A stretch of DNA of 64,000 nt from Alviniconcha marisindica (taxonomy: Eukaryota; Mollusca; Gastropoda; Provannidae): assembly GCA_018857735.1 (NCBI GenBank), contig JABMCL010000194.1, forward strand, positions 806,501 through 870,500, given 5' to 3'. Position 1 is the stretch's first letter; each line of letters begins with the position of its first letter. This document shows, one piece after another, positions 3,033-44,567 of this stretch. The notes under the pieces are model-generated. The model was not told the DNA's origin. It was given only the letters and a program-made list of their open reading frames with translations, and searched no databases. The position numbers and the translations under genes are program-made.

Positions 3033-3944
3033 TCAAAACACAGGATTCTGCTGCACGTTGATCTGCTGCACGAGCGTCCCATCACCCATGGAAATCTGCT
3101 GCACCATGCCTCCTTCCATGTGGATCTGATGCATGGAGCCATCATCCATGCGGATCTGCTGCGACGAGCCATCCTCCAGGCGTGCCTGGTCTATGTCCGA
3201 CTCCTCCACGCTGGTCTGCGGGGTGCCAGCGGGCGGGTGCTTCCTCATGACATGCACCACCAGGCTGCTCCGCTGAATGAAGTCGGCCTGGCAGTGGGGA
3301 CACTTGTAGGGCCTCTCCCCTGTGTGGATCCGCATGTGGGTCAGCAGGTTGGAGTTGCACGTGAAGTCTTTCTTGCACACTCTGCACATGTAGGGTTTCT
3401 CTCCCAGGTGGCGCTTGGTGTGGGTGATCCACAGGTGTCTCTTGAAAAACTTCTTGGGGCAGTACTCGCACTGGTATCCCCTGCCCACCACGTGGGTGTA
3501 CTTCCTGTGGCAGTACAGCGAGTTCATGGAAGTGAAGGACTCTCCGCAGTAGTCGCAGATGAAGGAGCTGGATTTTTCCCCTTCCGCATGCACCCTCATG
3601 TTGTGGATGTCCAGGCCGCTTTTGCGGGCAAACATTTTGTTGCACATGGCGCAGTGGTGTTTCCTGTGCCGCTCTGTCACCTGCCCATGCTCCTTCATCA
3701 TGTGCGAGTCCAGGTTGAGTCGTTCGGAGAACATAGCTCCACAAGTGGGACACAGCAAACAGCGCTTGTCAGCATTGAACAACAGACGCCTGTCGTTCTT
3801 TATCAGGGTCTTCCCTCTGGGACAGAGGCTGACACAGGTGACCTTGCCCTCTGGGTCGACACAGATGTGGCCGGTGATGTCTGGCCGGGACATGCCCTGC
3901 TCTCCACAGCACAGGCAGCCAAAGCGCTTTTTTCTCTCACCCCT
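3033..3944 (-). CDS. Cassette 1, terminal exon: header motif plus six zinc fingers
   Basis: The acceptor TTTCTGTTCTTGACAG gives phase 0; 303 residues to the stop. It opens RGERKKRFG, then the header CLCC-x12-HICVDPEGKVTC-x3-CPRG. The six fingers begin CPTC, CAMC, CDYC, CEYC, CRVC and CPHC. Fingers 5 and 6 are joined by HTGERPYKC; the last ends HVMRKH. The tail holds four imperfect repeats of about ten residues (EDGSSQQI, DDGSMHQI, EGGMVQQI, GDGTLVQQI). Third codon positions are visibly richer in G and C than in the other terminal exons. This is the last exon of the locus. The predicted joined protein is 782 residues. Confidence 0.87.
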   Translation of the reverse strand, partial: RGERKKRFGCLCCGEQGMSRPDITGHICVDPEGKVTCVSLCPRGKTLIKNDRRLLFNADKRCLLCPTCGAMFSERLNLDSHMMKEHGQVTERHRKHHCAMCNKMFARKSGLDIHNMRVHAEGEKSSSFICDYCGESFTSMNSLYCHRKYTHVVGRGYQCEYCPKKFFKRHLWITHTKRHLGEKPYMCRVCKKDFTCNSNLLTHMRIHTGERPYKCPHCQADFIQRSSLVVHVMRKHPPAGTPQTSVEESDIDQARLEDGSSQQIRMDDGSMHQIHMEGGMVQQISMGDGTLVQQINVQQNPVF

Positions 3945-4404
3945 CTGTCAAGAACAGAAACAAAAATCAGTTTAACAAATTATTCCCATATTATTTCTTC
4001 TGATTTCAAGTTCATCTTGTAGTAGGTAAGAGGAAGAAATGCAGGGCTTTAAAAAATAAATGCAAAACCATGGATTTTGTTTTAAATTGTAGGAAAATAT
4101 TCCACTTAATCAGGCTCTTCAACAGCTAAAGAGCTATCCATGAAATTTACTGCATGTAGACACATAGTTCCCACCTACATACATGTCAATGTGTCCAAAA
4201 TCCCTGTAGCACTGTTCCAATCATCCCTATCCATCCCCACACCAATTAAAGACAGACAGACAGACAGACTGACAGAGAAGCTGTAAGAGTCTGAGGGTGT
4301 TATACATGAACAATCAATTTAAAACAGTATTCAGATTAATCTGACTTTTGTCTCTACACTTCAGCTTTGATACGACAGAGGGAGACAGAGTGAGAGATAG
4401 TGAG

Positions 4405-4407
<3 letters not shown>

Positions 4408-4480
<73 letters not shown>

Positions 4481-4491
4481 AGAGAGAGAGC
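4408..4491. repeat. GA microsatellite
   Basis: About 40 AG dinucleotides with a few AAAG interruptions, just beyond the donor of the 53-nt exon. Confidence 0.95.
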
Positions 4492-4501
4492 ACAAACATA
4501 C

Positions 4502-4554
4502 TTTGGCAAATTTCTCCCTTATCACACCTTTCAATGGAATCCTTGCAAAGTTCT
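4502..4554 (-). CDS. Cassette 1, 53-nt linker exon
   Basis: The acceptor TATTTCTTTTTCAG and donor GTATGT flank 53 nt. The phase-1 frame gives ENFARIPLKGVIREKFAK, ending at phase 0. It matches the cassette 2 linker start (EN[FY], then VIR) and, more loosely, the PVKDAVAK core of cassettes 3 and 4. A GA microsatellite lies about 10 nt beyond the donor. Confidence 0.65.
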
Positions 4555-5019
4555 CTGAAAAAGAAATAAAAAATACCCATGTCTAACTGCAAGCAAATGA
4601 ACATCTTCTCAAAAAGACACGACAGAGGTTACAATAAAGTAATCACTACCCATCTGGTAGCAGAATGCTTCACATTAGACATGCATCTATTCAAAGATGA
4701 ATACTGAAAAACTTGGCAGTAACGAGCAATACAGACTACCACACTCAAATTTTAAGTGATTAAACTACAATTAACAAATCACACAACTGTCTCTACACCA
4801 ACCTGCCAAGCCATACAAACTACCAGGACAAAAACAAAGAGCAAAGAGACAGCAGCAACAACCACAAAACTACAACAAAACGGCATCTGGGTGACTAGAG
4901 CTCTGTCCAAAGCATCAAGCGGATTACCATCATCAGGACAGCGGGATAATTTTTGGCTGACCAACACAGTGAAAAGCCTGAAAACGTGTCTGCAGCAATC
5001 TGTCTACCCGCACACTAGA

Positions 5020-5050
5020 TTTTTTTTTTTTTAAAGGGGGGGGGGGGGGG
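5020..5050. repeat. T-run followed by G-run
   Basis: T13 then AAA then G15, in the intron between exon A and the linker exon of cassette 1. A G-rich structure is possible on this strand. Confidence 0.85.
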
Positions 5051-5352
5051 CACATCATATTAAAAAGCTGTCTAAAACAACAAGGCAACTTAGCCTCATG
5101 GGAATCAGGTAATCCTGTACCAGACTGATCCACTTATACATTCAATCCATCTCTTTACTTGCTTTAAGCAAGGTAACCATTCAGACCACTAAAACATAAC
5201 CTCCTTCAACAACTGTGATCATGCCAGATACTAAAAAACATAGTGATTACGCATAGTGATTACGCTGATCGAGACAGGGGTCTCGGACACCCAGACAAGC
5301 GCCAGACTTTCTACAGACTACTGCCATGCAACCTGAAGCAGAAAGAGCTTAC

Positions 5353-5493
5353 CTTTGGGCTTGATGCTGGGGGTCCAATGTTTAAACTCAATATGACTGA
5401 CAACACCGTGGTCACGGGCATACGGCTGATGACAGAAGTTGCAGACGAAGATGCAGATATCCAGATCAACATCTACCGGTTCAACACGCCGCT
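5353..5493 (-). CDS. Cassette 1, exon A: single C2H2 finger
   Basis: The acceptor GCTGTTTCCAG gives phase 1 and the donor GTAAGC follows AAAG at phase 1; 141 nt. It reads ERRVEPVDVDLDICIF, then CNFCHQPY to HIEFKH, ending HWTPSIKPKG. It is homologous to cassette 2 exon A in both the finger and the closing PKG. No plausible initiator lies in it, so it depends on an upstream exon. Confidence 0.75.
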
Positions 5494-5687
5494 CTGGAAA
5501 CAGCCAGCAGAATGAAAATCCACTGTATAAGAAGTGCCAAGTGGCAAGCCATGAGGCTAGCATCCACCTACACACCCATACGGCATGTGATGGTTTTGGA
5601 AGTTGATGAACACACTGATCACGACATACACAGCCTCATACTCAGTACATTTACCTACACCCTACATAACATCTGAACAATTTATTT

Positions 5688-5706
5688 CCCCCCCCCCCCC
5701 CCCCCC
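5688..5706. repeat. C homopolymer
   Basis: Nineteen consecutive C. Confidence 0.9.
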
Positions 5707-6226
5707 ATAACACAGTATTTGAACAAATATGCAACCTATTTCACTGCAAGGTGTGGTCACAGGGGTAGTGAGAGGAGACAGAAGTGTATAATTCATATCA
5801 CGTGTGTGTATACGTGACTGCTTGTGTACATCTGCATTTATGTGTGTGTATGCTGGTATGCATTAATCTGCTTGAATGCACGCGCACATGTCAGCACTGC
5901 AAGTGTGCATTATGGATTCAGCCACAAGAACCTGCATGCAGAGTACAACCCAAATCCAACGTTTGTCATGCAGCATGCCATCTGATTGTGGATACACAGT
6001 ACACACTTACAACTAGATGCAGCTAGTTGTACATTTACACCAAACACTGTACAGATACACAGAATCAAGTGATCATAATAACAGTATCAGTGTACTGTAT
6101 GGGACATATATATATATATGCACGTATTATTTGCCCTGAGAAAGAGAGTCAGAGGGAGGGAGGCAGAGATAGTGACAGATTTGACAGAGGAACACATTAA
6201 GACTGAAAAAATGTTTGCCTTCATGT

Positions 6227-9872: not shown

Positions 9873-9881
9873 CACACACAC

Positions 9882-10338: not shown

Positions 10339-11460
10339 TTATCTGGGCTGAAAATGAGGTGGCAGTGGCAACCCATAGCCAGGCTCCGTGTAGTTATGCA
10401 ATTCAGGGAACTGAGGCATTCCTGAAAAAACAGGAGCTTTTACAGGGAAAACAACATCGCCAGTGTTTGGTCTGTACGGCACTGGCTGCCTCTGAGTTTG
10501 ATCCACACCATCTGCATCATTTGAACTATCCCTGAAATGGAGCGGGTGCTCTCGGGCCCTGTTGTCCACTTCATTCCCTCTGAAATTTGACACGTGTCGG
10601 CTCTCCGTACCACTGGCTTCACTTGAGCTGTCAGCAAATTGTGGTGCTTGTCTGCACATTAATAGTGGTGGTGGTGCCGGTGGCTGATGCGCTGACTGGC
10701 TCAAACCTCCTCGAGGCCGCGAGTTCTGACTGTACCTGCGCTCCACACCATAGTTCAGTTTCTGGTGTTTCTTCATGTGAACATCAAGGCTGTTTTTCTG
10801 TGCAAAGGCGGCATCACACTCTTTACATTTGTATGGTTTCTCGCCTGTGTGGATTCTCATATGCACAGTCAGGCAGTAGTTTGATGAAAAGCCCTGGTTG
10901 CAGACCTTGCAGTGGTACGGAGACTCTCCCAAATGCTGCTGCATGTGGGTCTTCCACATTGACTTGCCATAATACGTCTTGGAGCAATACTCGCAAGAGT
11001 ACCTCTTTGACTGCAGGTGCACGCGTCGACGGTGAACATAGAGAGTGTCACGTGTCTTGAAAGCTTTCCCACACATGTCGCAGATGTGAGATTTTGGCAG
11101 GTCTTTGACATGGGTGTTCTGGTGGTGACGCAGGGCAGAACCATCACCAAACGAGTGACCGCAGGTGGAACACTTGTACTTCTCTGACCTCTTGGTTGTC
11201 TGGCCATGGATGTTGAGCAGGTGCATGTCAAAGCTGGTCTTGTTGGAGAAGATGTCTCCACAGTGATGGCAGAGGTGGCCATGCTTGTTGGAGTAGAGCA
11301 GGCAGCGCTGCATGTGGGCCAGCTTGAGGCCATCAGGACACTTGGCCACACACGTCAGCTGACCTTGCGGGTCCACACAGATGTGTTTGGATGCCTTGTC
11401 CTGATCCATAGGGGTCTTGCCACAGCCCATGCATTCATGAGTCATTCCAAACCGCTCCCT
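10339..11460 (-). CDS. Cassette 2, terminal exon: header motif plus six zinc fingers and a long tail
   Basis: The acceptor GATTGTGTTACAG gives phase 0; 373 residues to the stop. It opens RERFG, then the header CMGC-x12-HICVDPQGQLTC-x3-CPDG. The six fingers begin CHHC, CSTC, CDMC, CEYC, CKVC and CKEC. The last pair is joined by HTGEKPYKC with the final helix FAQKNSLDVH. The tail of about 130 residues is low complexity, with Pro, Ser, Gln and Asn runs and a closing Pro-rich stretch; no domain is recognised in it. The paralogue is cassette 1, which shares ICVDP in the header and the helix order. The predicted joined protein is 852 residues, the longest of the four. Confidence 0.87.
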   Translation of the reverse strand, partial: RERFGMTHECMGCGKTPMDQDKASKHICVDPQGQLTCVAKCPDGLKLAHMQRCLLYSNKHGHLCHHCGDIFSNKTSFDMHLLNIHGQTTKRSEKYKCSTCGHSFGDGSALRHHQNTHVKDLPKSHICDMCGKAFKTRDTLYVHRRRVHLQSKRYSCEYCSKTYYGKSMWKTHMQQHLGESPYHCKVCNQGFSSNYCLTVHMRIHTGEKPYKCKECDAAFAQKNSLDVHMKKHQKLNYGVERRYSQNSRPRGGLSQSAHQPPAPPPLLMCRQAPQFADSSSEASGTESRHVSNFRGNEVDNRAREHPLHFRDSSNDADGVDQTQRQPVPYRPNTGDVVFPVKAPVFSGMPQFPELHNYTEPGYGLPLPPHFQPR

Positions 11461-11524
11461 CTGTAACACAATCATGAATTTGGTCAAAGTACAAGTCCAT
11501 GATAACTGGATAACTGGACCTAAG

Positions 11525-12603
11525 AGTCTTCAGGATCACAAGATGCTGGAATACATAGGACTCCATCCTCACAGTCTTCAGGATCATACTGATGGTAAAG
11601 TACATGGGTCTGGGGGTTCTAACAGTCTTCAGGATCATACTGATGGTAAAGTACATGGGTCTGGGGGTTCTAACAGTCTTCAGGATCATACTGATGGTAA
11701 AGTACATGGGTCTGGGGGTTCTAACAGTCTTGAGGATCATACTGATGGTAAAGTGCATGGGTCTGGGGGTTCTAACAGTCTTGAGGATCATACTGATGGT
11801 AAAGTACATGGGTCTGGGGGTTCTAACAGTCTTGAGGATCATACTGATAATAGAGTACATGGGACTGGAATCCCAACAGTCTAGTCTTCAGGATCATATG
11901 AGAATACATGGGAATGGAATCCTAAATCTTCAGGATCATAAGATGATGGAGTACATGGGACTGGGGGTCCTAACAGTCTTCAGGATCATACTGATGATGC
12001 AGTACATGGGACTGGAATCCCAAGTCATCAGGATCACACTGGTGATGGAGTATATGGGACTGGAATCTGAACAGTCTTCAGGATCACACTGGTGACAGAG
12101 TACATGGGACTGGGAATCTGAACAGTCTTCAGGATCACACTGGTGACAGAGTACATGGGACTGGGAATCTGAACAGTCTTCAGGATCACACTGGTGACAG
12201 AGTACATGGGACTGGGAATCTGAACAGTCTTCAGGATCACATTGGTGGACTGGGAATCTGAACAGTCTTCAGGATCACACTGGTGACAGAGTACATGGGA
12301 CTGGGAATCTGAACAGTCTTCAGGATCACACTGGTGACAGAGTACATGGGACTGGGAATCTGAACAGTCTTCAGGATCACACTGGTGACAGAGTACATGG
12401 GACTGGGAATCTGAACAGTCTTCAGGATCACATTGGTGGACTGGGAATCTGAACAGTCTTCAGGATCACACTGGTGACAGAGTACATGGGACTGGGAATC
12501 TGAACAGTCTTCAGGATCACACTGGTGACAGAGTACATGGGACTGGGAATCTGAACAGTCTTCAGGATCACATTGGTGGACTGGGAATCTGAACAGCCTT
12601 CAC
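11525..12603. repeat. 51-bp minisatellite filling a cassette 2 intron
   Basis: The unit begins CAGTCTTCAGGATCA and repeats every 51 bp. The left block has GGTAAAGTACATGGGTCTGG and the right block has GTGACAGAGTACATGGGACT. Shortened units of about 38 bp recur near 12237, 12428 and 12567. It occupies most of the 1.4-kb intron between the 77-nt exon and the terminal exon. The period is divisible by three, so its open frames are artefacts. Confidence 0.95.
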
Positions 12604-12839: not shown

Positions 12840-12916
12840 CAAACGTCCATGTTGCACAGCAGACCCTCTGGGCACTCTCCTGATCACCTCCCTTACTAGG
12901 CTTGTGTGATAGTTTT
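12840..12916 (-). CDS. Cassette 2, 77-nt linker exon
   Basis: A strong polypyrimidine acceptor (TTTTTTTCTCTGTCAG) and donor GTGAGT flank 77 nt. In the frame from exon A it reads ENYHTSLVREVIRRVPRG and on to GRL, ending at phase 0. It aligns with the cassette 1 linker (ENFARIPLKGVIREKFAK). A second frame is also open through this exon and beyond (see findings), so the frame choice rests on phase agreement with both neighbours. Confidence 0.65.
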
Positions 12917-13457
12917 CTGACAGAGAAAAAAATGAAAATGTTAAACATTCTTGCAAGCAAGCCAACATTAAAACACCAAGGTTTGTGGCCTGTGCCCCAG
13001 AACCCAGCCTCCTCCTGACTTCAATGTGCTAGGGGCCATTACAATGACAAAACATTTACATTCCGTCTTAGCCTGCTGGTATTTTGCTCTTTATGTTCTT
13101 CTACTGCATGGCTGTTCATTGCTTGGAAGAAAGCACATCTGCTGGAAATGTACACAATCCTGAGATTAGTCTTGTGCTTCATATTATTAAAAGGCCTTTT
13201 TCTTAACCTTTCGGGCTTTTTAATTTTCAAGCTCAATGCAGCTGGCAGCTTGGGACCCACAAATGTGGGTGCACCCAGGGCCGCAATTAACGATGAAAAG
13301 TATTTAATTTCTCCTACGCTGTAGTAAAAGCTCTATGTTAAATGTCCAGCTATTCATGTAGTACTTGCATGTACATTTCCTGCATGTGCGTTAAAACTTG
13401 TGAACATTTCCAGAGTAACCAGCAAAAAGCGATGAAAAGTGACTGTTGTTTTTATCC

Positions 13458-14495
13458 AGGGGTCACACTGCCTTTTACAGTTTTAGTGATTTGTGTCAAC
13501 CGACATGAAACATTACATATTCTGCATCAGTAGTATGAAAAATGTGGACAGCATAACCTAGAATTAGCAAACAAACAGCTAAAAATGATGGAGTAACTTG
13601 ACTCTAGCTGTACTCAGAATTTAAAAGTGAGCAGACAAAACTAGTTAAAAAGTCTAACTACACAAAAAAGTGAAAATGTTCATCGAAATTGCCGTTCACA
13701 AGAAGTTTCAATTGTGCGCGGCATCATTTTCCAAAGATAAATCGTGCAGCAGAAATTATATTAGTAAACCCCAGCTCTCATCTACCATGGGACTTAGTAA
13801 CAAGATGAAGTTAAAATCAAGGCTGCCATCATTTTCTCTCATTTGTATTCAGTGTCTACGTGCGTTTTATTTTTGGTTTCGTAATCTTTAACCTTTTGAG
13901 TAAATGCTGATATACGCTGACACTATGCCTGGGCATACTGGCTCGTTCCAAATCCCGTTTCTTGGTTTCTGTCCTCTGTCGATTGACCAGAAAATATCAC
14001 TGATCAGTTTGGCAACTGATTCTTCTTCCTGATATGGCTTCGTTGGGATTTCGTTTCAAAATAACTACCATTCTTCAGAAAAGTATGCAAATTTTATTCA
14101 CAGACAGGGTGCTACTGACTATGGGTGCAGGGATAAGACTTGAGGGTGAAAAAGTCTCGCCTCATAGTCCAAAAAGTACACCAGCTTACAAGTTTATTTC
14201 AACATCATCCAGATTCCGCTCTTCACTGACTGGGCTTGTAGTGCGTGGTGGAGAGGAGTGCGGGGCCACGGCTGAGATAACACTGAAGATTGTCCGATGT
14301 GAAGCTGTAGTCTTTGATGACACTGAGTTTACAAGTAGATCTAGTGTTGAGTGATATGGCAGCCAAAGTAAGCCATAACTTGTTTAATCAATGTTAAGTC
14401 ATTTTGTGTACAGATACAGCAATTTGGCCAAAATGCATACGGCACCCCAAAAATGCAATACTTACACAAAATTCTGCAATGAGTGTGACACCTCT
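13458..14495 (+). mobile_element. Non-autonomous inverted-repeat DNA element, full-length copy
   Basis: Starts AGGGGTCACACTGCC and ends with the inverse of a related sequence (GAGTGTGACACCTCT), about 1.04 kb with no transposase frame. Three other copies (23464, 33431 and 58011 reversed) share the same start and internal order. MITE-like; the superfamily is not assigned because no clear target duplication was identified. Confidence 0.65.
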
Positions 14496-16327: not shown

Positions 16328-16444
16328 CTTTAGGCTCTAACGTGGGTGCCCAGTGTTTCTTCTCAATGTGGTTAAGAACACTGTAGTCCCTGGCAAAGGG
16401 TTGTTTACAAATGGAGCAGATGTAGACAATGGGGTCCACCTTCC
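16328..16444 (-). CDS. Cassette 2, exon A: single C2H2 finger
   Basis: The acceptor CCCTGATTGCAG gives phase 1 and the donor GTGAGTTC follows AAAG at phase 1; 117 nt. It reads GKVDPIVYICSICKQPF to HIEKKH and ends HWAPTLEPKG. Cassette 1 exon A (5353-5493) is a clear paralogue, sharing ARD, HIE-KHW-P and the closing PKG. The single finger has the same C-x2-C-x12-H-x4-H spacing as the other exon A fingers. Confidence 0.75.
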
Positions 16445-19604: not shown

Positions 19605-20369
19605 TCATGAAACAGTACCATCAAAGTTTACTTGTTTTCTGGAACCTTTTATTTCAAATCCATGGTTCCTCATGTGAACATTAAGACTGTTTTTCTGAGC
19701 AAATGCAGCTTGACAGACTGAGCACTTGTATGGCTTTTCACCAGAATGGATACGTTGGTGAACTCGCAAGTTGTAAGCAGTGGTAAACACTCGTGAGCAT
19801 TGTGAACATGAGGAGTATGTAAATGCCCTGGAGTGGATCTTCACATGTTGATCACGCACATGCTTGACCAAAAATATTTTCCGACATATGTGGCAAGGGA
19901 ACTGTTTGGAGCGCAGATGCTGAGTGTTCCTGTGCTGTTTCAAGCCAGAGGAGTGCAGGTAAGCCTTTCCACACACCTCACACACGTGGGATCTCCTTCG
20001 GTTCACATCATGAACTTGCATGTGTGCTCTCAGACCGAAGATGGTGGCAAATGATGAATCACAAAACTGACATGCAAAAGGTTCCCCATCCTCTCTATGT
20101 ATGTGTTTCAGGTGAAGCTTCAAAACCGTTAAATAATCACATGTTATGCCACACCTGTTACACAGGTATCGCTCCGAATCTCGTTGACTACAGAGAACTA
20201 CTTCTGCAGTCTGACCCCTGATCTTTCTCCCATCTGGACAAAAGGTGCAACAGGAGAGTTGTCCCTTACTGGTGACACGCATGTGCGCTGCCATGCGGTC
20301 TACGGTAGTGTGCAGCTGGTAACATCTCAGGCACTGATAATACGTCATCACTGCCCCATTTTCAAATAC
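19605..20369 (-). CDS. Cassette 3, terminal exon: header motif plus six zinc fingers
   Basis: The acceptor GATCATGTTTCAG gives phase 0; 254 residues to the stop. It starts VFENG, then the header CLRC-x12-H-x10-C-x3-CPDG. The six fingers begin CNRC, CQFC, CEVC, CHIC, CSQC and CSVC. The last two are joined by HSGEKPYKC, and the last helix is FAQKNSLNVH. The tail after the last His is short and basic. It is closest to cassette 4 (VFENG/VYENG start, TTAYNLRVH against TTSYNLKVH in finger 5), which suggests these two cassettes duplicated from each other more recently than from cassettes 1 and 2. The predicted joined protein is 735 residues. Confidence 0.85.
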   Translation of the reverse strand, partial: VFENGAVMTYYQCLRCYQLHTTVDRMAAHMRVTSKGQLSCCTFCPDGRKIRGQTAEVVLCSQRDSERYLCNRCGITCDYLTVLKLHLKHIHREDGEPFACQFCDSSFATIFGLRAHMQVHDVNRRRSHVCEVCGKAYLHSSGLKQHRNTQHLRSKQFPCHICRKIFLVKHVRDQHVKIHSRAFTYSSCSQCSRVFTTAYNLRVHQRIHSGEKPYKCSVCQAAFAQKNSLNVHMRNHGFEIKGSRKQVNFDGTVS

Positions 20370-20824
20370 CTGAAACATGATCAAAGACACATCAGTCATA
20401 ACAGAAAATGGTAACAGTAGACAGGTTGCCAAGCCAGCTCCCTACTATGTTACAGTGAGTGTCAGAAGAAGCACAAAATTATTGTCACGTGGTATTTAAC
20501 TCTTAGAATCTTACAACTTTTCACCCTTTTTGTCCTGAAAGAAAATTTACCAAACTGACATTAAAAGTGAAGACAGGCAACTTTCAGTTTTGCAACAGTA
20601 AATGAATGAAGCACAAGTTACCATTTAATTAGTAATAATTATGGAACTGGTACAAAATCATACATGTCTAGAAGCTCATGCCATTCTGAGAACTACTCCT
20701 TATGGCAAATTCCTCTGCACCAGTCTTTATCTATCAAAAGGAGGAATCATACTGTACGGTTCAAAACAGCTCCAACCTGAATGGCAGTACAACTACCTCT
20801 CCATTTCTTCACCCCACATGTACA

Positions 20825-21960
20825 TTCTCCCTGCTGCTGAGTGTGGCACTATACAGTCTCCCTGCTGCTGAGTGTGGCACTACATTCTCCCTGCTGCTGA
20901 GTGTGGCACTACACAGTCTCCCTGCTGCTGAGTGTGGCACTACATTCTCCCTGCTGCTGAGTGTGGTACTACAGTCTCCCTGCTGCTGAGTGTGGTACTA
21001 CAGTCTCCCTGCTGCTGAGTGTGGCACTACAGTCTCCCTGCTGCTGAGTGTGGCACTACAGTCTCCCTGCTGCTGAGTGTGACACTACAGTCTCCCTGCT
21101 GCTGAGTGTGGCACTACAGTCTCCCTGCTGCTGAGTGTGGCACTACACAGTCTGCCTGCTGCTGAGTGTGGCACTACAGTCTCCCTGCTGCTGAGTGTGG
21201 CACTACAGTCTCCCTACTACTGAGTGTGGCACTACACAGTCTCCCGCTGCTGAGTGTGACACTACACAGTCTGCCTGCTGCTGAATGTGGCACTACACAG
21301 TCTCCCTGCTGCTGAGTGTGGCACTACACAGTGTCCCTGCTGCTGAGTGTGGCACTACACAGTGTCCCTGCTACTGAGTGTGGCACTACACAGTGTCCCT
21401 GCTACTGAGTGTGGCACTACACAGTGTCCCTGCTACTGAGTGTGGCACTACACAGTGTCCCTGCTACTGAGTGTGGCACTACAGTGTCCCTGCTACTGAG
21501 TGTGGCACTACAGTCTCCCTGCTGCTGAGTGTGGCACTACACAGTGTCCCTGCTGCTGAGTGTGGCACTACTCAGTCTCCCTGCTACTGAGTGTGGCACT
21601 ACACAGTCTCCCTGATACTGAGTGTGGCACTACAGTCTTCCTGCTGCTGAGTGTGACACTACAGTGTCCCTGCTGCTGATTGTGGCACTACAGTCTCCCT
21701 GCTGCTGAGTGTGGCACTACAGTCTCCCTGCTGCTGAGTGTGGCACTACAGTCTCTCTACTGCTGAGTCTGACACTACAGTGTCCCTACTGCTGTCTCCC
21801 TGCTGCTGAGTATGACATTACACAATCTCCCTACTGCTAAGTGTGGTACTACAAAGTCTCCCTACTGCTTAGTGTGGCACTAAACATTCTCCATACTTCT
21901 GAGTGTGGCACTAAACATTCTCCATACTGCTGAGTGTGGCACTAAACATTCTCCCTGCTG
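20825..21960. repeat. 29-31-bp minisatellite, about 38 copies
   Basis: The unit contains TCTCCCTGCTGCTGAGTGTG, followed by GCACTACAG or GCACTACACAG (29- and 31-bp variants). It lies in the cassette 3 intron between the linker and terminal exons. Variants TACTGAGTG and AGTGTCCC cluster in the middle. Confidence 0.95.
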
Positions 21961-22252
21961 CCATAAAAGCCTCCCATGTTCAGAACTGGGTGCAGTTAGA
22001 AAATAAAATTTGTTACCAACTGTGACTGACATGGTGAAAATCTTGAGGACTGGCAGAAGTAGTCCTGGCACCAATATAAAAAGAGACCTTCAACAACATC
22101 AAAAGTCTGCTGCACTTGCTTCTGGTGGCAATTTTTTGGCGTCTACTTATTGTGGTGAACATCAGTTTCAAAATAAGCCTTGTTAAGCAGGAAAATGAAA
22201 ACTGTCTAAATAAATCACCACAATGACCAACATGCTTTCACGAACAACTTAC

Positions 22253-22302
22253 CACTTTGCTCTTTGCCACAGCGTCTTTCACAGGGGCAGCAAATATCTT
22301 TT
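22253..22302 (-). CDS. Cassette 3, 50-nt linker exon
   Basis: The acceptor TGTTCATTTCAG and donor GTAAGT flank exactly 50 nt. In the phase-1 frame it encodes EKIFAAPVKDAVAKSKV and ends at phase 0, ready to join VFENG of the terminal exon. Length, phase and the PVKDAVAK core match the cassette 4 linker exon at 30299-30348. Confidence 0.7.
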
Positions 22303-23370: not shown

Positions 23371-23463
23371 AAACAACAAAACTGAACAGGTAGTGGCAGC
23401 CAAGCCTGCACGTTACCATCGGCGTGTGTAAATACCGATGGTTTTGCCCATTTTCCATGCATC

Positions 23464-24405
23464 AGGGGTTGCGCTGCCTTTCAGAGATTTGCGTCAACCG
23501 ACGTATTTTGCATCAGTGATACAAAAAATGCGTATCCTACAGCATACACCTTGGAATTAGTGCACAAAGCAAAATTGATGGAGTTCACGATCTATAAAGT
23601 GAGCAGACGAAAATAGTAAAACAAAAGTCTATCCGTGCAAGAAAAAGTGGAAACGTTCAGTAAATATGCCGTTCATAAATAGTTTGAATAGATCGGAACA
23701 TAGTACGTGGCATGATGAGCAGACGATGTCGGCAAACCCAGTTCTTGTCTACCGCGGAATTTGGTAATGAGATGAAGTTGAAATCGAGGCTGCCGCCATT
23801 TTCCCTCATTATTACTGGACATCAACATGCGTTTTGTTTACGGCTTCGTAGTCGTCTACATTTGAGTAAATTCTGATACATGCAGACAGTTAAACTAGGC
23901 ACATTGGGTTGTTTCAGATTCCATGTTCGGGATTATGTCCTCTGTTGACTGACCGGAAATTATCACTGATAAGTCAGTTTAGCAGGATACATGATTTCTC
24001 GCTGGCCAGATTGATACAGAGACCGATTATTCTTCCGGATATGGGTTCGTAAGGATTCGGTTCAAATAAATCATTGTTATTCTTCGGAGAAGTATGCAAA
24101 TTTTATTCACAGACACAGAGTGCTACTAACTACAACGTGCATAGATCAGTGATTGGGGGGTGGGGGGGATCGCTATACAGACCAAAATAATGGCAGCTTG
24201 CACGTTTATTTCGTCGTCCAGATTCTGCCCTTCATTGACTGGACTTGTAATGCCAGGGAGGAGTGCAGAACTACGGCTGAGATCACACAGAGTTTGCAAA
24301 TCGATTTAGTGTTGAGTGACGCGGCAGCCACCAGTGAGCCATAACTTGCTGAATTGGCGTTCAGTCATTTTGCGTACGGTGACGCGGCAATGTGGCCAAA
24401 ATGCG
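23464..24405 (+). mobile_element. Copy of the AGGGGTCAC element, 3' truncated
   Basis: Starts AGGGGTTGCGCTGCC and is colinear with the copies at 13458 and 33431. The right end is lost in a GGGGGGG run near 24410, some 70 bp from the cassette 3 exon A. Confidence 0.65.
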
Positions 24406-24483: not shown

Positions 24484-24633
24484 CATGTACAGCTGATGCA
24501 GGATGGGCCTTGCGAGCATGGTAGAGGTATTGCTGTGGTTTTGCACAGACAGAGTGGCAAATGGGGCAGATGTACAACTCTGAGGTCAGCTCCTCTTTGA
24601 CCAGCCTCCATCTTCCCTGTGGTGCAGGTGGGT
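24484..24633 (-). CDS. Cassette 3, exon A: single C2H2 finger
   Basis: The acceptor CATATTTTAG gives phase 1 and the donor GTAAGG follows CATG at phase 1; 150 nt, 50 codons. It reads DPPAPQGRWRLVKEEL, then the finger CPICHSVC to HARKAH (C-x2-C-x12-H-x4-H). It is homologous to the cassette 4 exon A. It lies directly beside a truncated copy of a dispersed inverted-repeat element (23464-24405). Too short to be seen by simple open-frame length, it was found by splice sites and phase. Confidence 0.7.
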
Positions 24634-27552: not shown

Positions 27553-28326
27553 TTAGAGAGAAAAGCTAAGCTCAACAGAACCAGTGTTCCCAGTTGCACT
27601 AGACTTGGCACAGCTTTTTATGTGGAAGTTCAAACTGTTTTTCTGAGCAAACTGTGTTTTGCAATGTGAACACATGTAAGGCTTTTCACCAGAATGGATC
27701 CGTTTATGCACTTTCAAGTTGTAGGAAGTAGTGAATGCTTTCCCGCAGACTCTGCAAGCATGGGAGTGCTCCCCGGTATGGGTTTTGATGTGTCTCCTCT
27801 GAGTCAATGTTGAATAAAACACTTTGGGGCATGTGGGACAGGGGAAAACCTCGGTGCGAAAGTGAACACTATTTCTGTGCAATCCTAGGCCTCTGAATGA
27901 AAAGTAAGCATTCCCGCAAATGTCACAGACAAAAGGCTTGGTTCTCTCGGGATTGTGAGTTTGTTTGTGCTTTAAGAAGTCCCGGCAACTGCCTGTGGAA
28001 TAGCCACAGACATCACATGTGAATTTGTTTACAGTCTTCTCATTACTGTTCTGATACTTGCACCGAGCAGCATGGTTACAGAGAGCTTGGCTGCTGGTGA
28101 AGCTCTTGCCACAAAGCTGGCAAAGTCTCACAAAGCAATGTTCCTCATCAAAAACAAAGCCACCAGTTTTTCGTTTTAGCTTCCTGCCACTAGGACAGAA
28201 GGCCTGACAGGAAAGTTGTCTTTCATTAGTGATGCGTATGTGATCAGAGATGAGGTAAGGGGATGTGTATACCTTGAAACATTTCTGGCATTGGTAGTGT
28301 GTTGCCGCTAATCCATTCTCGTACAC
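27553..28326 (-). CDS. Cassette 4, terminal exon: header motif plus six zinc fingers
   Basis: The acceptor TTCTGTTTGCAG gives phase 0 and the reading frame runs 257 residues to a stop. It opens VYENG, then the header CQKC-x12-H-x10-C-x3-CP shared by all four terminal exons. Six fingers follow: CQLC..C (C2HC type, ending HAARC), CDVC, CDIC, CPTC, CRVC and CSHC. The last finger also ends in Cys (HIKSC) where the other cassettes have His. Fingers 5 and 6 are joined by HSGEKPYMC. The final helix FAQKNSLN is nearly the same as in cassettes 2 and 3. Known: C2H2 arrays bind specific DNA. Inferred: this exon gives the isoform its target preference. The predicted joined protein is 759 residues. Confidence 0.85.
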   Translation of the reverse strand: MYENGLAATHYQCQKCFKVYTSPYLISDHIRITNERQLSCQAFCPSGRKLKRKTGGFVFDEEHCFVRLCQLCGKSFTSSQALCNHAARCKYQNSNEKTVNKFTCDVCGYSTGSCRDFLKHKQTHNPERTKPFVCDICGNAYFSFRGLGLHRNSVHFRTEVFPCPTCPKVFYSTLTQRRHIKTHTGEHSHACRVCGKAFTTSYNLKVHKRIHSGEKPYMCSHCKTQFAQKNSLNFHIKSCAKSSATGNTGSVELSFSL

Positions 28327-28529: not shown

Positions 28530-29300
28530 CAGCAAGGTTCAGACATCAGACAGTCTGGCACAGACACCATACAGTCAGGATAGGCACCACATAACACCAT
28601 ACCATCAAGCACAGACCTTCATACTGTCTGGCATAGCCCTTCACACCGTCAGGCATAGACCCTAATACTGTCAGGCGCAGACCTTCATACTGTCTGGCAC
28701 AGACACCATACAGTCAGGAGCAGGCACCAAATAACACCATACTGTCAAACATAGACCTTCATATTGACAGGTGTTGACCTTCATACTGTCCAGCATAGAC
28801 ATTCACAGTGTCTGGCACAGTCCTTCAGTCTGGCAAAGACACCATACAGTCAGGTGTAGGCACCAAATAACAACATACCGTCAAACAGCGACCTTCATAC
28901 TGTTGAGCACAGACACCAAACAGGTTTAGGCATCATATAACACTACATAGACCTTCATACTGTCAGGTGCAGACCTTCAGTTAGGCGTAGGCACCAAATA
29001 ACACAGACACCAAACAGGTTTAGACATCATATAACACTACACTGGCAGGCATAGACCTTCATGCTGTCAGGTGCAGACCTTCAGTCAGGCATAGGCACCA
29101 AATAACACCATACCGTCAAACTTAGACCTTCATATTGTGGGACACAGACACCAAACAGGTTAAGGCATCATGTAACACCATACTGGCAGACATAGACCTT
29201 CATACTGTCAGATGCAGACCTTCAGTCAGACACACTACATAAACACCATACTGCCAGGTTTAGACCTTCAAACAGTCAGGTGGACGCACCACATAACACT
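28530..29300. repeat. Degenerate tandem repeat
   Basis: Irregular units around GACCTTCATACTGTCAGGC and GGCACCAAATAACACCATAC in the cassette 4 intron. Confidence 0.7.
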
Positions 29301-29387
29301 GTGCGGTCAAACCATCACCACACAGATCAACCACTTGAACTTGCCAGCGCTACCATGCTTCCTAATCAAAAATGCACTGCAGTATGG

Positions 29388-29820
29388 GAGCACACCATCC
29401 CCATGAGACAAACTGTGGCCTGGGGGCAGGTTAATTACCACATGCGGTTGATGTCAGCACACCGTCCCCATGAGACAAACTGTGGCCTGGGGGCAGGTTA
29501 ATTACCACATGCGGCTTGATGTCAGCACACCGTCCCCATGAGACAAACTGTGGCCTGGGGGCAGGTTAATTACCACATGCGGTTGATGTCAGCACACCGT
29601 CCCCATGAGACAAACTGTGGCCTGGGGGCAGGTTAATTACCACATGCGGTTGATGTCAGCACACCGTCCCCATGAGACAAACTGTGGCCTGGGGGCAGGT
29701 TAATTACCACATGCGGCTGATGTCAGCACACCATCCCCAAACTGTGGCCTGGGGGCAGGTTAATTACCACATGCGGCTGATGTCAGCACACCATCCCCAA
29801 ACTGTGGCCTGGGGGCAAGG
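29388..29820. repeat. 67-bp tandem repeat, about seven copies
   Basis: The unit contains ACAAACTGTGGCCTGGGGGC and TTAATTACCACATGCGG. The last two copies lack CATGAGACA and are shorter. Confidence 0.92.
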
Positions 29821-30298: not shown

Positions 30299-30348
30299 CA
30301 CTGTAGTCTTTGAGACAGCATCTCGAACAGGCACTGTGCAGAGTGGGC
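30299..30348 (-). CDS. Cassette 4, 50-nt linker exon
   Basis: The acceptor GTGTGTTTCAG and donor GTAAGT flank exactly 50 nt. In the frame set by exon A it reads GPLCTVPVRDAVSKTTV and ends at phase 0. Cassette 3 has a homologous 50-nt exon (EKIFAAPVKDAVAKSKV), so the motif PV[KR]DAV[AS]K is conserved at the protein level. That supports the frame and argues against chance splice sites. No known domain is recognised; the peptide probably links the single finger to the six-finger array. Confidence 0.7.
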
Positions 30349-31323: not shown

Positions 31324-31536
31324 CTTCAAAAGCTATTTGATCAGCAGTGGGGTGTGAACGGCGGGCATGCTGAAGCAGTCGTCGGCGACTGGCAAAGGCA
31401 CTGGAGCACTTAGGGCACACAAACAGCTGGCTGTTCAACTGCTCCTTCACCTGTGTACAGCTCTTGTGTGGTGGTGAAGGTGGACTACTGTCCACCCAGA
31501 GTTCAGCACTTTCCTTTCTCCCTCCTTCAAAATTTG
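31324..31536 (-). CDS. Cassette 4, exon A: single C2H2 finger
   Basis: The acceptor CCCGTTTCAG gives phase 1 and the donor GTAAGA follows GAAG at phase 1; 213 nt. After a Gly/Glu-rich start and a Ser/Pro stretch (SSPPSPPHK), the finger is CPKCSSAF to HARRSH with spacing C-x2-C-x12-H-x4-H. It closely matches the equivalent exon of cassette 3 (VKEQLNSQLFVCPKC against VKEELTSELYICPIC). It has no start codon in a plausible context, so it needs an upstream coding exon, and exon 2 at 35175-36137 fits in phase. Symmetric phase allows it to be skipped or included without a frameshift. Confidence 0.75.
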
Positions 31537-34500
31537 CTGAAACGGGAAGCCCATTAACAGTGAAATCAACTCATCACCTAGTCAATAAACTGATTCGTTT
31601 ATTTTTATTTTTAATACAATGATTTTGTTTTGAGGGGATCCACTAATTCTTTTCTTGCATATAATGATATACTGCAACATTAACACTGTCACTGGTATCA
31701 ACTAAGATAAAGAGCTCATGAAAAACAAGTAAGGAAATCAGAAAGCCCTTAAACTTCAGGAACAAAGCCAAACAATTTAAACAATAACACAGATTGCTTC
31801 TTACTTTCTCTCCATTTATTATTGTTTAAAAAAAAAAAGTCAGAAACTTACCTCATTTTTTGGATTGGGTCTACAAACCCATGTCCTGATTCAAGTTTTG
31901 AACTTCCAAATTCTACTTCCAAGTACAAAATTGCAGGCAAACGATGCTACGGTCAAATCCCTGTTTAATCCACAACATCAAAACTGAAACATGCTTCATC
32001 CATTTACAGCATACAAAACTATCATGTTGTTGTTGTTGTTGTTGTTTAGTTTTTTAACTGACATTCTGCAATCAACACATGAATGTAAATTGTAATTATC
32101 AAGGCATATATCTGCAAAATCAACACCACTCTAGTAAAACACTAGATATATATTATATACAAAAACAATGACACATTCATTTTGTCCTTGTAAACATGCA
32201 CTGCACTGCTTTACATTCAATGCATATGTTACCCTGTATTACAAATGGGGAAAAAACAAAAAAACAATAAAAACCATACATTTAAATTATTCAAAAGCAT
32301 TTATAACACTGCAAAATACTGAAGATCCAGAAGCTGAAATGTTAAAGGTGCATTATAAATTCAGCACAACAGGAAAATAAAAACCAAAAATCTCAAACAT
32401 TTACTTTTATACCAGACAGGATGAGCCTAAGTAAACCATGTAACAAACAAGACATGGCAAGTCAATACAAATGCAATACCATTAAAAACATTAACAATAA
32501 TAATAAAGTACAAAGATTGTTTTTATCATTTTATTGCACTGCAACAACAGAAAATACAATGACAACTTCAATTGCAATCTTCTGTTTCCATTCAGTTTTT
32601 ATAATTCATTGACAACAAAGCTGCAACTGCACAGTATCTCTTACAGAGATGCAACTCAAACAAAACAAAATTTCCCATCCAATCTGTAGTGTAAAGTGTG
32701 TAAAATGTGTTTTAGACCATGCTTCTGTTGCATTGCACAGTGACTTGTTCAGTGTATCTGATGAATGGGAGCGTGTAGTGTGGACAGGACGCGTTACGTT
32801 ACAAACACCACAAAACATACAAGTGCAAACACTACAACAAAATACAATTCCGCACACACACACACACACTGAGTACTCACACACTACACCACAATGAAGA
32901 ATGAAAATGAGTTATGTTGATGAGTATAAACAAATTTTGGAAAAAATAACAGAAAATGACATATTAGATGAAACTGGGTGGTTGTACAAATCTACCCTGA
33001 ACATGAAAAGTCTGCATGCATGTACTGGTGCATTCCTACACTGAAAAATGATGAACAAACAAAAACAAGGTGCATGTGTCTGAAGTTAACTGTAATCCTT
33101 TGCCATCTCCAAACTTTAACAAAAATCCCTGCCTTTTCACCCTGAAGTAATAAACAGTGTCTTTTGAAGTATTTGCAGTTTTTGCGGAACTTTAACTTCA
33201 GCAAACAATCAATGCTGTTCAAAATTTAATGATCTACATCTCTTCAATTTATAAACAAATCATTAAATGCCTTTTGAATTAGACCTTCAGTACACTTTAG
33301 CAACCAATGCCTTTTGTCTTATCATCAACTTTATCAGAAGCACATCTCTTGAAAACTTCATTTCAAAAGACCAAGCCACTACTGGATTCTTTTTTAGAAA
33401 TAAAACTTTGAGATTTGTCATATATACATCAAGGGTCACGCTGCCTTTCAGAGATTTGTGTCAACCGACGCAAAACATTACGTATTTTGCACCAGTGATA
33501 CGAAAAATGCATAGCCTATGGCACACACCTTGGAATTAGCGCACAAAGCGAAATTGATGGAGTTCACGATCTATAAAGTGAGCAGACAAAAATAATAAAA
33601 CGAGTCTATCCGTGCACGAAAAAGTGGAAAAGTTCAGTAAATATGCCGTTCATAAAGAGTTTGAATAGATCAGAACATATATGCGGCATGATGAGCAGAT
33701 GATGTCAGTTCTTGTCTACCGCGGGATTTGGTAACGAGATCAAGTTGAAATCAAGGCTGCCGCCATTTTCTCTCATTCATATTTGACGTCAATGCGCGTT
33801 TTGTTTACGGCTTTGTAGTCGTCTACATCTGATAAAAATTCTGATACACATGGACAGTTAGACTAGGCACACTGGGATGTTTCAGATTCCATGTTTGGGA
33901 TCGTGTCCTCTGTCGACTAACCGGAAATTTTCACTGATAAGTTTAGCAGGATACGTGATTTCTCGCTGGCCAGACTGATACAGAGACTGATTATTCTTCC
34001 AGATATGGGTTTGTAAGGATTCGGTTCAAATAAATCATTGTCATTCTTTGGAAAAGTATGCAAATTTTATTCACAGACACAGGGCACTACTGACTATAAC
34101 GCGCATAGATCAGTGATTGGGGGGGGTATTGCCATACAGACCAAAATAACGGCAGCTTGCGCGTTTATTTCATCTTCCAGATTCCGCCCTTCATTGACTG
34201 GACTTGTGGTGGCGGGGAGGAGTGCGGAGCCACTGCTGAGATCACACGGAGTTTGCAAATCGATCTAGTGTTGAGTGACGCGGCAGCCACCAGTGAGCCG
34301 TAACATGCTGAATCGGTGTTCAGTCATTTTGCATACGGTGACGCAGAGATGTGGCCAAAAATGCAATATTTATGCAAAATCTTGCAATGAGCGCGACCCC
34401 TGATACATGTACAAAAACACTACCCAAATAAATACTTTGTCAACTGCACCAGCAGTGCAACAGTCAACAGACCAATCACCATGCCTCTCTGGGTTTCTCA

Positions 34501-35174: not shown

Positions 35175-36137
35175 CTTTCATCTCCTGGTTATGGACCCTC
35201 TTCATGTGGACGTTGTAGCCTTTAATGCTGGAAAAGTCCTTGGAGCATGCTGTGCACTTAGGAACATCTTTTGCTTCCCCCTGCACCCGACCTTTTTTAA
35301 CCTTTGCCACAGGCTCTTTTTTTGTTTTGTACCCAGATTTTCTTGCTCGCTTTGCCTTGTCTGGTGAACCCTTTGGGCGACCCCTCTTTCTCTTGGGTCT
35401 CTCTTCCTCCTCTTCTTTCACATCCTCCTCTTCCTCTTCATGCCACGAAGCATCACTGTCTTTAGCTCCAGCAGATTCAGTGTCTGACTCAGAAGATGAC
35501 CATTCCATGGGATTCACAAACTCCTTGCCACCACTCTCCACTTCTGCAACTTCGTCTGCAGCTTTCTTTGGGGTCTCCACTTTTTCCTTCTTGATCTTGA
35601 CCTTGATTCTGGCTTTGGTTGCTCTTTTCTGAGCTGCCAGCTTGGCTGCTTGTTTGGCTCTGGCACTTTTGGGACCACGAAGTAAAGATTTTCTCTTGGA
35701 CATCTGGGAGGGTTTAGACTGGACTTTGGAGGGAGGCACATACTCTTCGTCATCACCATCATCATTGTCATCATTTTGATTGTCATTCACTTCTTCTCCA
35801 TCTTCATTTTCTGCAATGTGCAAGGCATCTTCATTGTCATCATCATCTTCAGGGGGAGGGGGTTGAGGCACTGAACTAAAACCAGGGTCGGGTATAAAGG
35901 AGGAGGACGGCTGTGGTTTTTGGAATGGTGTTTGCTCTGGCAGCGTCAGATTGGGCTGTGCTGGTGATGTGGCAGTTGTAGTGGTTGTGGGCAGCACTGA
36001 CGAGGACGCACTCTGCATCTCTGCATCTTCAGTGACAGGCACAATGAGCGAAGTGTCATCAGGATGCGGCACAGGAATGTCTAGCAGAGCCAGGAAACTC
36101 AGAATACGCGAGGCACCTGCTCCATACATCAGCAGAT
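35175..36137 (-). CDS. Common exon 2: end of Mutator fragment, acidic/basic linker, AT-hook, C2H2 finger
   Basis: The acceptor ATATTTCAG gives phase 1 and the donor after AAAG gives phase 1; length 963 nt (321 codons). Joined to exon 1 it reads SIN-LLMYGAG, which continues the Mutator-like domain. The conserved segment DIPVPHPDDTSLIVPV follows (36033-36083). Next come a Ser/Thr/Pro-rich stretch, a run of Asp/Glu, a Lys/Arg/Ala-rich block, more acidic runs and an AT-hook KRKRGRPKG (about 35370-35396). A single C2H2 finger (CTACSKDF to HMKRVH) closes the exon. SUMO-type sites (IKKE, VKEE) are visible but untested. The composition fits a nuclear chromatin-associated factor. Exon 63614-64000 is the paralogue, with the same start and a diverged tail. 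Confidence 0.8.
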
Positions 36138-40548: not shown

Positions 40549-40578
40549 TGGGGGTGGGGGTGGGGGGCGGGGGGGGGG
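40549..40578 (+). other. G-rich tract, possible quadruplex
   Basis: GGGGGTGGGGGTGGGGGGCG followed by nine more G: several G-runs with one-base loops. Confidence 0.6.
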
Positions 40579-42269: not shown

Positions 42270-42515
42270 GCATTATATTTATAGCCTGACAACATTTGAG
42301 GCAATGCCTAATATATCTCTGTAGAGAGGCTTAAAGGAGTGAGAAATGCCAGAAGTTACGCAGTCGGCAATAATATCATGTGCTCATCAATGCATTATAC
42401 ATTTATAGCCTGACAACATTTGAGGCAATGCATAATATATCTCTATAGAGAGGCTTAAAGGAGAGAGAAAAGCCAGCCAGAAGTTACACAGTCAGCAATA
42501 TCATGTGCTCATCAA
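42270..42515. repeat. About 120-bp tandem duplication
   Basis: Two copies with GCCTGACAACATTTGAGGCA and ATATCATGTGCTCATCAATG. The latter motif also recurs near 37925, 43290 and 57965. Confidence 0.8.
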
Positions 42516-42905
42516 TGCTCTGCGTGCTCATTCATTTCCACAAGACCTTAGACGCTGCTCAACCCACATTACAAGCACTGCTTTCAGGCACCTTTCTCCA
42601 AACTCTGCCAGATTTGGTTATACCACTGAAGGGACACTCTTTATGATTTATCTCTGCGCACCTGTCCACCTATGTGGTCAGCACCCTCTGAAATGTTTGG
42701 ATACTAATATGACTGTGGAACTGGAAGCAACCAAATGCCCAAGCACCCATGTAAACACGAGAACACACATCCACCCCAGGTAACCAAAGAAAACTTCTGC
42801 CTTGATTTAAACAATTTTGGTTTTATTTGAGCTGGTGTACGCAACACGGTCAGTTATAAAACGTCTGATATAATTAATTTTGAGTTTGTCTGTTAGCGTT
42901 ACAAA

Positions 42906-43060
42906 CTTACCGCCATTTGAGCATCATCAAAAAACTGTTCGTTAGCTGACAATTTTTCAAGACCTATGCCTCTGGCATAATCAACAATGGTAGTGGTTAA
43001 AGGAAGGATGTCATAAACCAGTGCTTGGAGTTTGTGCTCAATCCAGTCATCTTTTAAAGC
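42906..43060 (-). other. Exon-like segment with consensus donor
   Basis: The open frame DDWIEHKLQALVYDILPLTT and on to NEQFFDDAQMA ends at a perfect donor GTAAGT, with GGTTTTCAG as candidate acceptor. A decayed copy lies at 14755-14900. The phases (2 in, 0 out) do not fit the surrounding locus, so this is probably an exon of another duplicated gene or a mobile-element remnant. The protein is not recognised. Confidence 0.4.
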
Positions 43061-43145
43061 CAAACTGAAAACCTTCCTCTTCTCACAGTATTTCTGCCCC
43101 AACTAATAAGTAATATAAATACGCAGTTTCTACTACAGTCATTGT

Positions 43146-43195
43146 CTGTGTGTGTGTGTGTGTGCGCGCGTGCGTGCGTGTGTGCACGCGCATGT
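43146..43195. repeat. GT/GC alternating purine-pyrimidine tract
   Basis: TGTGTGTG merging into GCGCGCGTGCGTGCG; Z-DNA-prone composition. Confidence 0.7.
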
Positions 43196-43737
43196 GTGCC
43201 TTATGTAAATTGTTTTAGTAAGGCTGTCCTCTGTGTGTATAGAATATTGTATTTAGATTGATATGTATGCTGTGAACAATTAGGGCATTAATGAGCGCAT
43301 GATAAACATAATATTATTAATTTCCAACTCATTTTTTTCCGTACAGAAAGAAAGAACTTGAACCAATTTTGTGCCCAGTTATTAGTTAACCTACAGGAAT
43401 TTCTCTGTTTAAAAATATTAACACGACGTCCGTCCATTATTCTTGTTCCTGAGTGATTTCCAAACATAATTGTTTTCTGATAACGATTTCTGACTTCTGA
43501 CATAATCTGATGTGGCATTTAGTGGTTATAATTAACAAAAAAGAATATGCAAGGTGGTCAGAAATTCCTGGGACATTTTAAATACTATTAATATTATTGG
43601 TCACAAATATCATAGAATAAAATAAAATAAAAAAGGTCGCATCAAATGAATAAACCCCAAATTTGCAACAAAAGTGAGTTTTAACTTTTTATCTTTTTTA
43701 TCATATTTTGTTTTTCACTGTGGGTAGGCTCTTGTGA

Positions 43738-43980
43738 CGTTTGACCTAGATCTACTTTCTGGGTAACCATGCACGCTTCATCTGTGCCGATGTCGGCAAA
43801 ATGATCAACCGTTTACTGAGGACTCGCCCCTTTACAGACAAATCAACTCACTTTTGTTGCAAAACGCTGGCTTCACTCACTAGAGATGACCCCGTTTGAA
43901 TGATTCTGGTGATATTTGTGACCCAAAATGGCGTTTGAAGCTTCCCACGAATTTCCAACCGACTCCTTGGACATTACCGC
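43738..43980. repeat. Dispersed repeat, contiguous copy
   Basis: Matches the two pieces at 39131-39275 and 39996-40062, here nearly adjacent. Confidence 0.6.
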
Positions 43981-44287
43981 GTAAGTTTATTGAACTGACG
44001 ACTAGTTGTAGATGGCTATAACATAAAATAGTTAATGTGCACCACATGGGCTGATGGAGCGGAATCGAACTGAGAAGGCCGGAGAACTCTGTACAGTACC
44101 GTGTGTGCAGGATTACCGGAACTTGGGACTGTTCGGGGGAAAAGGCTCTGATTTTTGAACAGCCATAATTCAAAACTTACAATTTCCTTGTTTTCAAACA
44201 CTGAAATAAATGAGTGCAGTAACTCTAGTACTGAGTTATAATTCACCAACGGTCATTAACCCAAGAAATGACTTGCAAATAACTTAC

Positions 44288-44567
44288 TGATTGAGGCCTT
44301 TATGTTGACCTCATACATCGGATTTGGTGAATTCCCATGTCCTTGCTGCGTTCTTCCGGTGTGCACGTCATTTATGACACCACAGTTGCACAAAATATAC
44401 AGCACACTGGCAAGTCCATAACGCGCTTCTCTCTCAGTGCGCCGCAGGTCGAGCAGTGAGCTACACTGCTTACAGTGTAATTGCTTTGACAATTCGTACA
44501 AATCGACAATGCGGCGGCCATCACTCCAGGCAAAAAATTCGCTTTTTGTCCACGGCCTTTCCTCCAT
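44288..44567 (-). CDS. Common exon 1: Mutator-like transposase domain, N-terminal fragment
   Basis: This is the initiator exon, with the ATG in an A-rich Kozak context (AAAATGG) and a consensus donor GTAAGT after phase 1. It encodes 93 residues. Landmarks are GRRIVDL near residue 18, a CKQC knuckle, RYGLASVLYI, a second CNC knuckle, NDVHTGR and the closing VNIKASI. This order (GRRIV, CxxC, GLASVLY, CxC, FxVN-KA) matches the start of the Mutator-like transposase domain found in animal MULE elements, which I recognise from family knowledge. The paired knuckles probably bind zinc. The catalytic DDE part is absent here and downstream, so this is probably a domesticated fragment used for interaction or DNA contact. 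Its paralogue at 60668-60935 ends at the same phase. Confidence 0.8.

Follow-up and report, generated by a model that had tools for sequence, protein, structure and literature searches.

The joining of one front part to interchangeable tails is best known from fruit-fly lola. One account of lola gives different C-terminal C2H2 zinc fingers to 17 of 20 isoforms (PMC11426971), and mod(mdg4) is described as having common 5' exons and many variable 3' regions (PMC4667647). Here we describe a locus of comparable layout in the snail Alviniconcha marisindica. The window, the whole stretch of DNA that was analyzed, comprises 64,000 nucleotides of contig JABMCL010000194.1 (hereafter C409; the window is C409:806501-870500), and the genome search space was 817.6 Mb. 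As the initial annotation of this DNA had proposed, constant 5' exons lie upstream of several 3' cassettes of the same phase, an arrangement like that of lola and mod(mdg4) but with no BTB domain detected. We consider it probable, at roughly 0.8, that this is one caenogastropod transcription-factor locus in which a constant N terminus is spliced to one of ~12 alternative C-terminal cassettes.

The array runs along the minus strand, where exons 1 and 2 are followed downstream by four three-exon cassettes in the order D, C, B, A. The exons of the spliced model are as follows, in window positions.

Exon 1, 44288..44567, minus strand: ATG at 44567, phase-1 donor; encodes the N-terminal portion of a Mutator-type domain, cysteines arranged as C-x2-C ... 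C-x-C.
Exon 2, 35175..36137, minus strand: remainder of the Mutator-type match, acidic linker, EWSS, KRGRPKGS, one C2H2 finger, phase-1 donor at 35175.
Cassette D (c01) exon A, 31324..31536, minus strand: one C2H2 finger, phases 1-1.
Cassette D (c01) exon B, 30299..30348, minus strand: phases 1-0.
Cassette D (c01) exon C, 27553..28326, minus strand: signature module, then six C2H2 fingers and the stop.
Cassette C (c02) exon A, 24484..24633, minus strand.
Cassette C (c02) exon B, 22253..22302, minus strand.
Cassette C (c02) exon C, 19605..20369, minus strand.
Cassette B (c03) exon A, 16328..16444, minus strand.
Cassette B (c03) exon B, 12840..12916, minus strand.
Cassette B (c03) exon C, 10339..11460, minus strand.
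Cassette A (c04) exon A, 5353..5493, minus strand.
Cassette A (c04) exon B, 4502..4554, minus strand: found by reading the sequence, weak donor.
Cassette A (c04) exon C, 3033..3944, minus strand.

All inner exon edges of the model carry AG/GT, and positions 44567, 35175, 31536, 24633, 16444, 5493 and 3033 of the initial annotation are all exon edges within it. Joining exons 1-2 to each cassette gave products of 759 (D), 735 (C), 852 (B) and 782 (A) amino acids with no internal stop in any of the four; the in-frame joins that had been claimed are thus open, and the claimed phases (1-1, 1-0, 0-stop) are identical in 4/4 cassettes. These equal phases were not accepted as four independent observations because they are expected from duplication of one three-exon unit. 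Exon B was the sole candidate above the splice-score cut in cassettes B, C and D (3/4), and no exon B candidate exceeded that cut in cassette A. As a control, C2H2 fingers in short frames with passing splice sites on either side were counted over ~145 kb of the contig. There were six in phases (1,1) on the minus strand, two in other phases, both of them the same fingers read with another splice site, and none on the plus strand. The Pfam family PF00096 was detected in all four exon C frames of the window (E values of 4e-23, 1e-12, 5.5e-23 and 1.3e-18), identifying tandem C2H2 fingers.

No methionine occurs among the 285 residues that exons A and B encode in the four cassettes of the window, and cassette D, of 345 residues, has its earliest in-frame methionine at residue 306. 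Cassette D at least therefore needs an upstream coding exon, a need that the initial annotation had stated for the cassettes in general. The lack of methionine is not a general rule, since exons A/B of c05 and c07 contain it.

Cassettes c05 and c07 belong to a continuation of the array past base 1 of the window. The initial view of two common exons and same-strand cassettes was correct as to layout but not as to the count of four. The layout is real, and it is confirmed that it extends from 4 to 12 cassette-type terminal exons (exon C), which share the minus strand of C409 and lie within ~124 kb of exon 1.

C409:834826, 826869, 817960 and 810444, minus strand: exon C starts of window cassettes D, C, B and A (c01-c04).
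C409:801076, 793824, 782372, 766825, 763932, 760160 and 746672, minus strand: exon C starts of c05-c11.
C409 ~727.4 kb, minus strand: exon C of c12.
C409:731765-731631, minus strand: exon A of c12.

When exon C of cassette D was compared with the genome, at least 20 places matched at E <= 1e-12, of which 12 were the cassette exons C and 8 lay elsewhere; these counts are lower bounds, as 150 of 800 candidates were scored. The eight other places match from query residue 63 or later and so represent fingers without the signature. Every counted exon C frame is open (12/12). Exons A and B were located for c05, c06, c07, c08 and c11, with exon A acceptors at C409:803352, 795565, 785722, 775528 and 749963, and c09 and c10 are in frame with exons A and B of c08. 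Exons 1-2 joined to the further cassettes gave open frames in 7/7 combinations, of 710 to 1013 amino acids, bringing the in-frame joins with the same phases to 11 of the 12 cassettes.

The intron between exons B and C holds tandem repeats in each window cassette (28553-29799, 20821-21961, 11520-12570 and 4377-4490), with periods of 67-140, 29-31 and about 50, and one CT run. A dispersed repeat of ~0.95 kb lies in introns of the locus at 23457-24401, 33424-34360 and 13457-14436, with an inverted copy near 58 kb (58009-58684). DNA similarity between cassette introns, such as the 86.6% between 23457-24401 and 33424-34360, belongs to this repeat and was rejected as part of the cassette unit.

A genome-wide search with the N-terminal domain (N-domain) of exons 1-2 returned nine matches. 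Those on C409 are exon 1, exon 2 and both exons of a plus-strand paralog described below, and no further N-terminal exon was found inside the array. Local N-domain searches likewise revealed no extra copy in the window or in C409:746501-806500; C409:732871-744602 was covered by the genome-wide search alone. The initial annotation, too, had seen exon 2 alone as an upstream coding source for the cassettes. Other N-domain copies are on C2281, C2024, C192 and C2010, and the 20, 40, 30 and 20 kb examined around them contained finger matches but no cassette signature.

The constant N terminus matches the Pfam Mutator family PF20700 over positions 1-103 of 357 (E = 1.2e-11, 44.6 bits, cut-off 26.5); the query was a typed exon 1-2 piece that differs from the final model by two residues at the exon join, which the match crosses. 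Positions 104-357, which include the part taken to hold the catalytic core, found no match in exons 1-2 in the Pfam scan. For the common region that the initial annotation called Mutator-derived, the match above cut-off thus covers the N-terminal part of the family model alone; the domain may have come from an element or may have been taken up by one, and "Mutator-related" is the safe wording. Beyond this domain, exon 2 encodes the acidic linker, then EWSS (35514-35485), the AT-hook-like KRGRPKGS (35394-35365) and the C2H2 finger (35256-35191). A Pfam scan that covered the exon 1-2 piece as well as the frame of exon 2 listed no BTB domain. Among solved structures, one sequence match to the N-domain was listed, at E = 0.87.

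Searching protein sets with the N-domain identified six proteins among 456 candidates: two from Batillaria, two from Babylonia, one from Nucella and one other. In P0001-P0004, from three other snails, the N-domain is followed by a finger of the exon 2 type and then by cassette sequence. The WSS and RGRP motifs recur in P0002, P0003, P0004 and P0006, and neither is present in P0001 or P0005. A whole-protein Pfam scan at 1e-3 listed PF20700 in P0002 and P0005; the N-domains of P0001, P0003 and P0004 are 78, 74 and 67% identical in the N-domain search, though PF20700 was unlisted for these three. An AlphaFold prediction on P0005 with four relatives had a mean predicted local distance difference test (pLDDT) score of 54.2, with N-domain blocks mostly <56. 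The cassette D signature retrieved one protein among 81 candidates, and four among 1345 were retrieved when the starts of three cassettes were linked into a single query; these five look like frames read through genomic DNA.

In a tree of exon C (22 rows, that of c12 being partial with 37% of columns filled), c06 grouped with Babylonia P0002 (100/99), c10 with P0003, P0010 and P0011 (96/95), cassette D with P0007 (100/100), and cassette B with P0008 and P0009 (95/89). This N terminus is thus joined in annotated Babylonia proteins to a c06 ortholog (P0002) and to a c10 ortholog (P0003). The second cassette of Batillaria changed sides between two trees, and its type was left unused. The Nucella annotation is described as retaining the longest isoforms alone (PMC12506669) and the Batillaria protein set as merged by EVidenceModeler (PMC10382545), so the absence of isoforms from either says little.

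We compared the fingers of 11 exons C (55 pairs) at four residues per finger that we take to be base-contacting. Contact-residue agreement between cassettes was 0.13, 0.10, 0.10, 0.14, 0.55 and 0.81 for fingers 1-6, and the agreement of fourfold third bases was 0.36, 0.34, 0.37, 0.65, 0.43 and 0.39. The fourfold values of 0.43 and 0.39 in fingers 5-6, against 0.36, 0.34 and 0.37 in fingers 1-3, do not support the idea that the last fingers are alike because cassettes were recently copied from one another. Selection at the protein level seems instead to maintain fingers 5-6; finger 4, with 39 of 60 fourfold third bases in agreement (0.65), is the exception. Between orthologs, contact residues are kept at 71-100%, close relatives being available for c01, c03, c06 and c10. 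The values for c06 and P0002 were 20/24 contact residues and 57% of the whole exon, and those for c10 and P0003 were 17/24 and 63%, whole-exon identity here including the variable tails. Across 66 paralog pairs, in contrast, contact residues were less alike than the whole exon (32% versus 39%, with the c12 row partial). Better keeping in orthologs combined with lower likeness in paralogs fits, and suggests, a shared DNA anchor in fingers 5-6 with separate addresses in fingers 1-4. Sequence-specific DNA binding and a regulatory function are predicted from the finger family.

In the mechanism we propose, the phase-1 donor of exon 2 would be joined to the acceptor of one cassette exon A, either in cis or, as in lola and mod(mdg4), in trans. 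The chosen cassette would contribute exon A with one finger, the short exon B, and exon C with its signature module and six fingers, each choice pairing the same N terminus with another set of DNA-reading fingers. With fingers 5-6 all isoforms would recognize the same half-site; fingers 1-4 would recognize an address specific to each isoform. That the cassettes share one N terminus, the central claim of the initial annotation, is supported by the single upstream unit, by the 11/12 in-frame joins and by the proteins of three snails that combine this N terminus with a cassette. Shared use in A. marisindica itself is strongly inferred from these comparisons.

Several observations weigh against this reading. 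Two donors score low, that of exon 1 (1.78) and that of exon B in cassette A (2.35), and poly(A) signals are irregular, with none <=3 kb after cassette B. No convincing exon A or B of their own was found for c09 and c10; a single exon A and exon B seem to be common to c08, c09 and c10. No exon B of c12 passed the cut-offs. One possible hidden first exon, of 62 amino acids with a good donor, lies at 25335-25149 (1 seen versus 0.2 expected). Finally, Babylonia P0002 and P0003 are products of separate loci, LOC143277453 and LOC143291581, which lie on different contigs (25.2 and 25.8 Mb) and have one product each, so the two cassette types are not seen there to share one N terminus.

The lack of a located exon B in c12 would also suit a birth-and-death array in which a few intact cassettes serve as alternative C-termini and the rest are decaying, an explanation that overlaps with our preferred one and that we regard as possible though doubtful. 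Two degenerate pieces with stops do occur inside the array, one like exon A near C409:797.2 kb and one like exon C near 762.0 kb. Against general decay stand the 12 open exon C frames and the ortholog conservation of contact residues in c01, c03, c06 and c10.

Separate zinc-finger genes, with exons 1-2 serving cassette D alone and the others having their own promoters and short first coding exons, are improbable in our estimate. Candidate first exons (a phase-1 ATG and at least 20 amino acids) were sought in the four gaps. A strict donor cut-off, passed by 8/10 model donors, left 0, 1, 0 and 0 of them, so that three gaps held none; shuffled sequence led us to expect 0.16, 0.20, 0.27 and 0.37 at this cut-off. 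A laxer one, passed by 10/10 model donors, gave 0, 1, 3 and 1, with candidates in 3/4 gaps, and short or non-canonical first exons would escape such a search. The Babylonia orthologs of c06 and c10 do sit in separate genes, but both genes carry this N terminus rather than a new one. In A. marisindica one N-terminal unit lies upstream of both c06 and c10, and most simply this unit would serve the two; in Babylonia the locus may have been duplicated and the cassettes divided between the copies. A single long gene, transcribed across several cassettes that end up in one protein, is very improbable: Batillaria P0001 does unite parts of two cassettes, but its model, from merged automatic predictions, leaves out the final fingers of the first of them, and every window cassette has its own stop and an exon C that starts from a phase-0 acceptor.

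The neighborhood of the array contains further finger-encoding frames, among them those of the head-to-head paralog mentioned above.

Paralog exon 1, 60668..60935, plus strand: same N-domain, a separate gene outside the array.
Paralog exon 2, 63614..64000 and on to C409:871261, plus strand: contains its fingers.

This paralog has two exons encoding 471 amino acids, and it grouped with Batillaria P0005 in the N-domain tree (100/99), in which the row of P0006 is partial (31% of columns). Both resemble the array locus in having the same N-domain followed by C2H2 fingers, and differ from it in having two exons and one fixed finger end with no cassette signature. This difference points to an origin of the array within a single branch of a small gene family. 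Upstream of exon 1 on the minus strand are a FLYWCH-like exon at 59271-59032 (PF04500, 21.5 bits, slightly below the cut-off of 23.6) and, at 54984-53569, a 472-codon frame with at least eight C2H2 fingers; the two may form one FLYWCH-zinc-finger gene. Between the two head-to-head N-terminal genes, a 222-codon plus-strand frame at 46510-47175 encodes five C2H2 fingers. Elsewhere in the genome, large C2H2 frames also cluster at G000:C2176:313365-340007, where they occupy both strands and lack the cassette signature.

The fuller account that we favor, with less assurance, is that a domesticated Mutator N-domain forms the constant part of a locus with ~12 interchangeable ends over 124 kb, each with a shared half-site (fingers 5-6) and its own address (fingers 1-4), and that this locus is old in caenogastropods, came to be split between two loci in neogastropods and arose independently of insect lola. 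Searches of open-license literature gave no description that we recognized as being of this locus. If it is confirmed, the lola solution of one constant module with many DNA-reading ends would not be confined to the BTB genes of insects but would exist in molluscs too, where the constant module is related to a transposase. Snail genomes annotated one gene at a time would then lack such isoforms or have them merged. The anchor-plus-address pattern further predicts which bases the isoforms share and which differ.

Among the closest known systems, lola of Drosophila also has a constant N terminus and many alternative C-terminal zinc-finger ends. The constant part of lola is, however, a BTB domain and its isoforms are trans-spliced, whereas the snail locus, known from genomic sequence alone, has a Mutator-type N-domain and three-exon cassettes. 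Drosophila mod(mdg4) likewise has shared 5' exons and multiple 3' variable regions, but its constant part is BTB, its ends are mostly FLYWCH and some of its 3' regions lie on the opposite strand; in the snail, 12/12 terminal exons are on one strand. Mutator-like transposases (PF20700) resemble exons 1-2 over the first 103 positions; positions 104-357 are unmatched, and zinc fingers come next in the snail locus. Because no BTB match was found, the locus is not a member of the lola/mod(mdg4) group, but by analogy it would work as they do.

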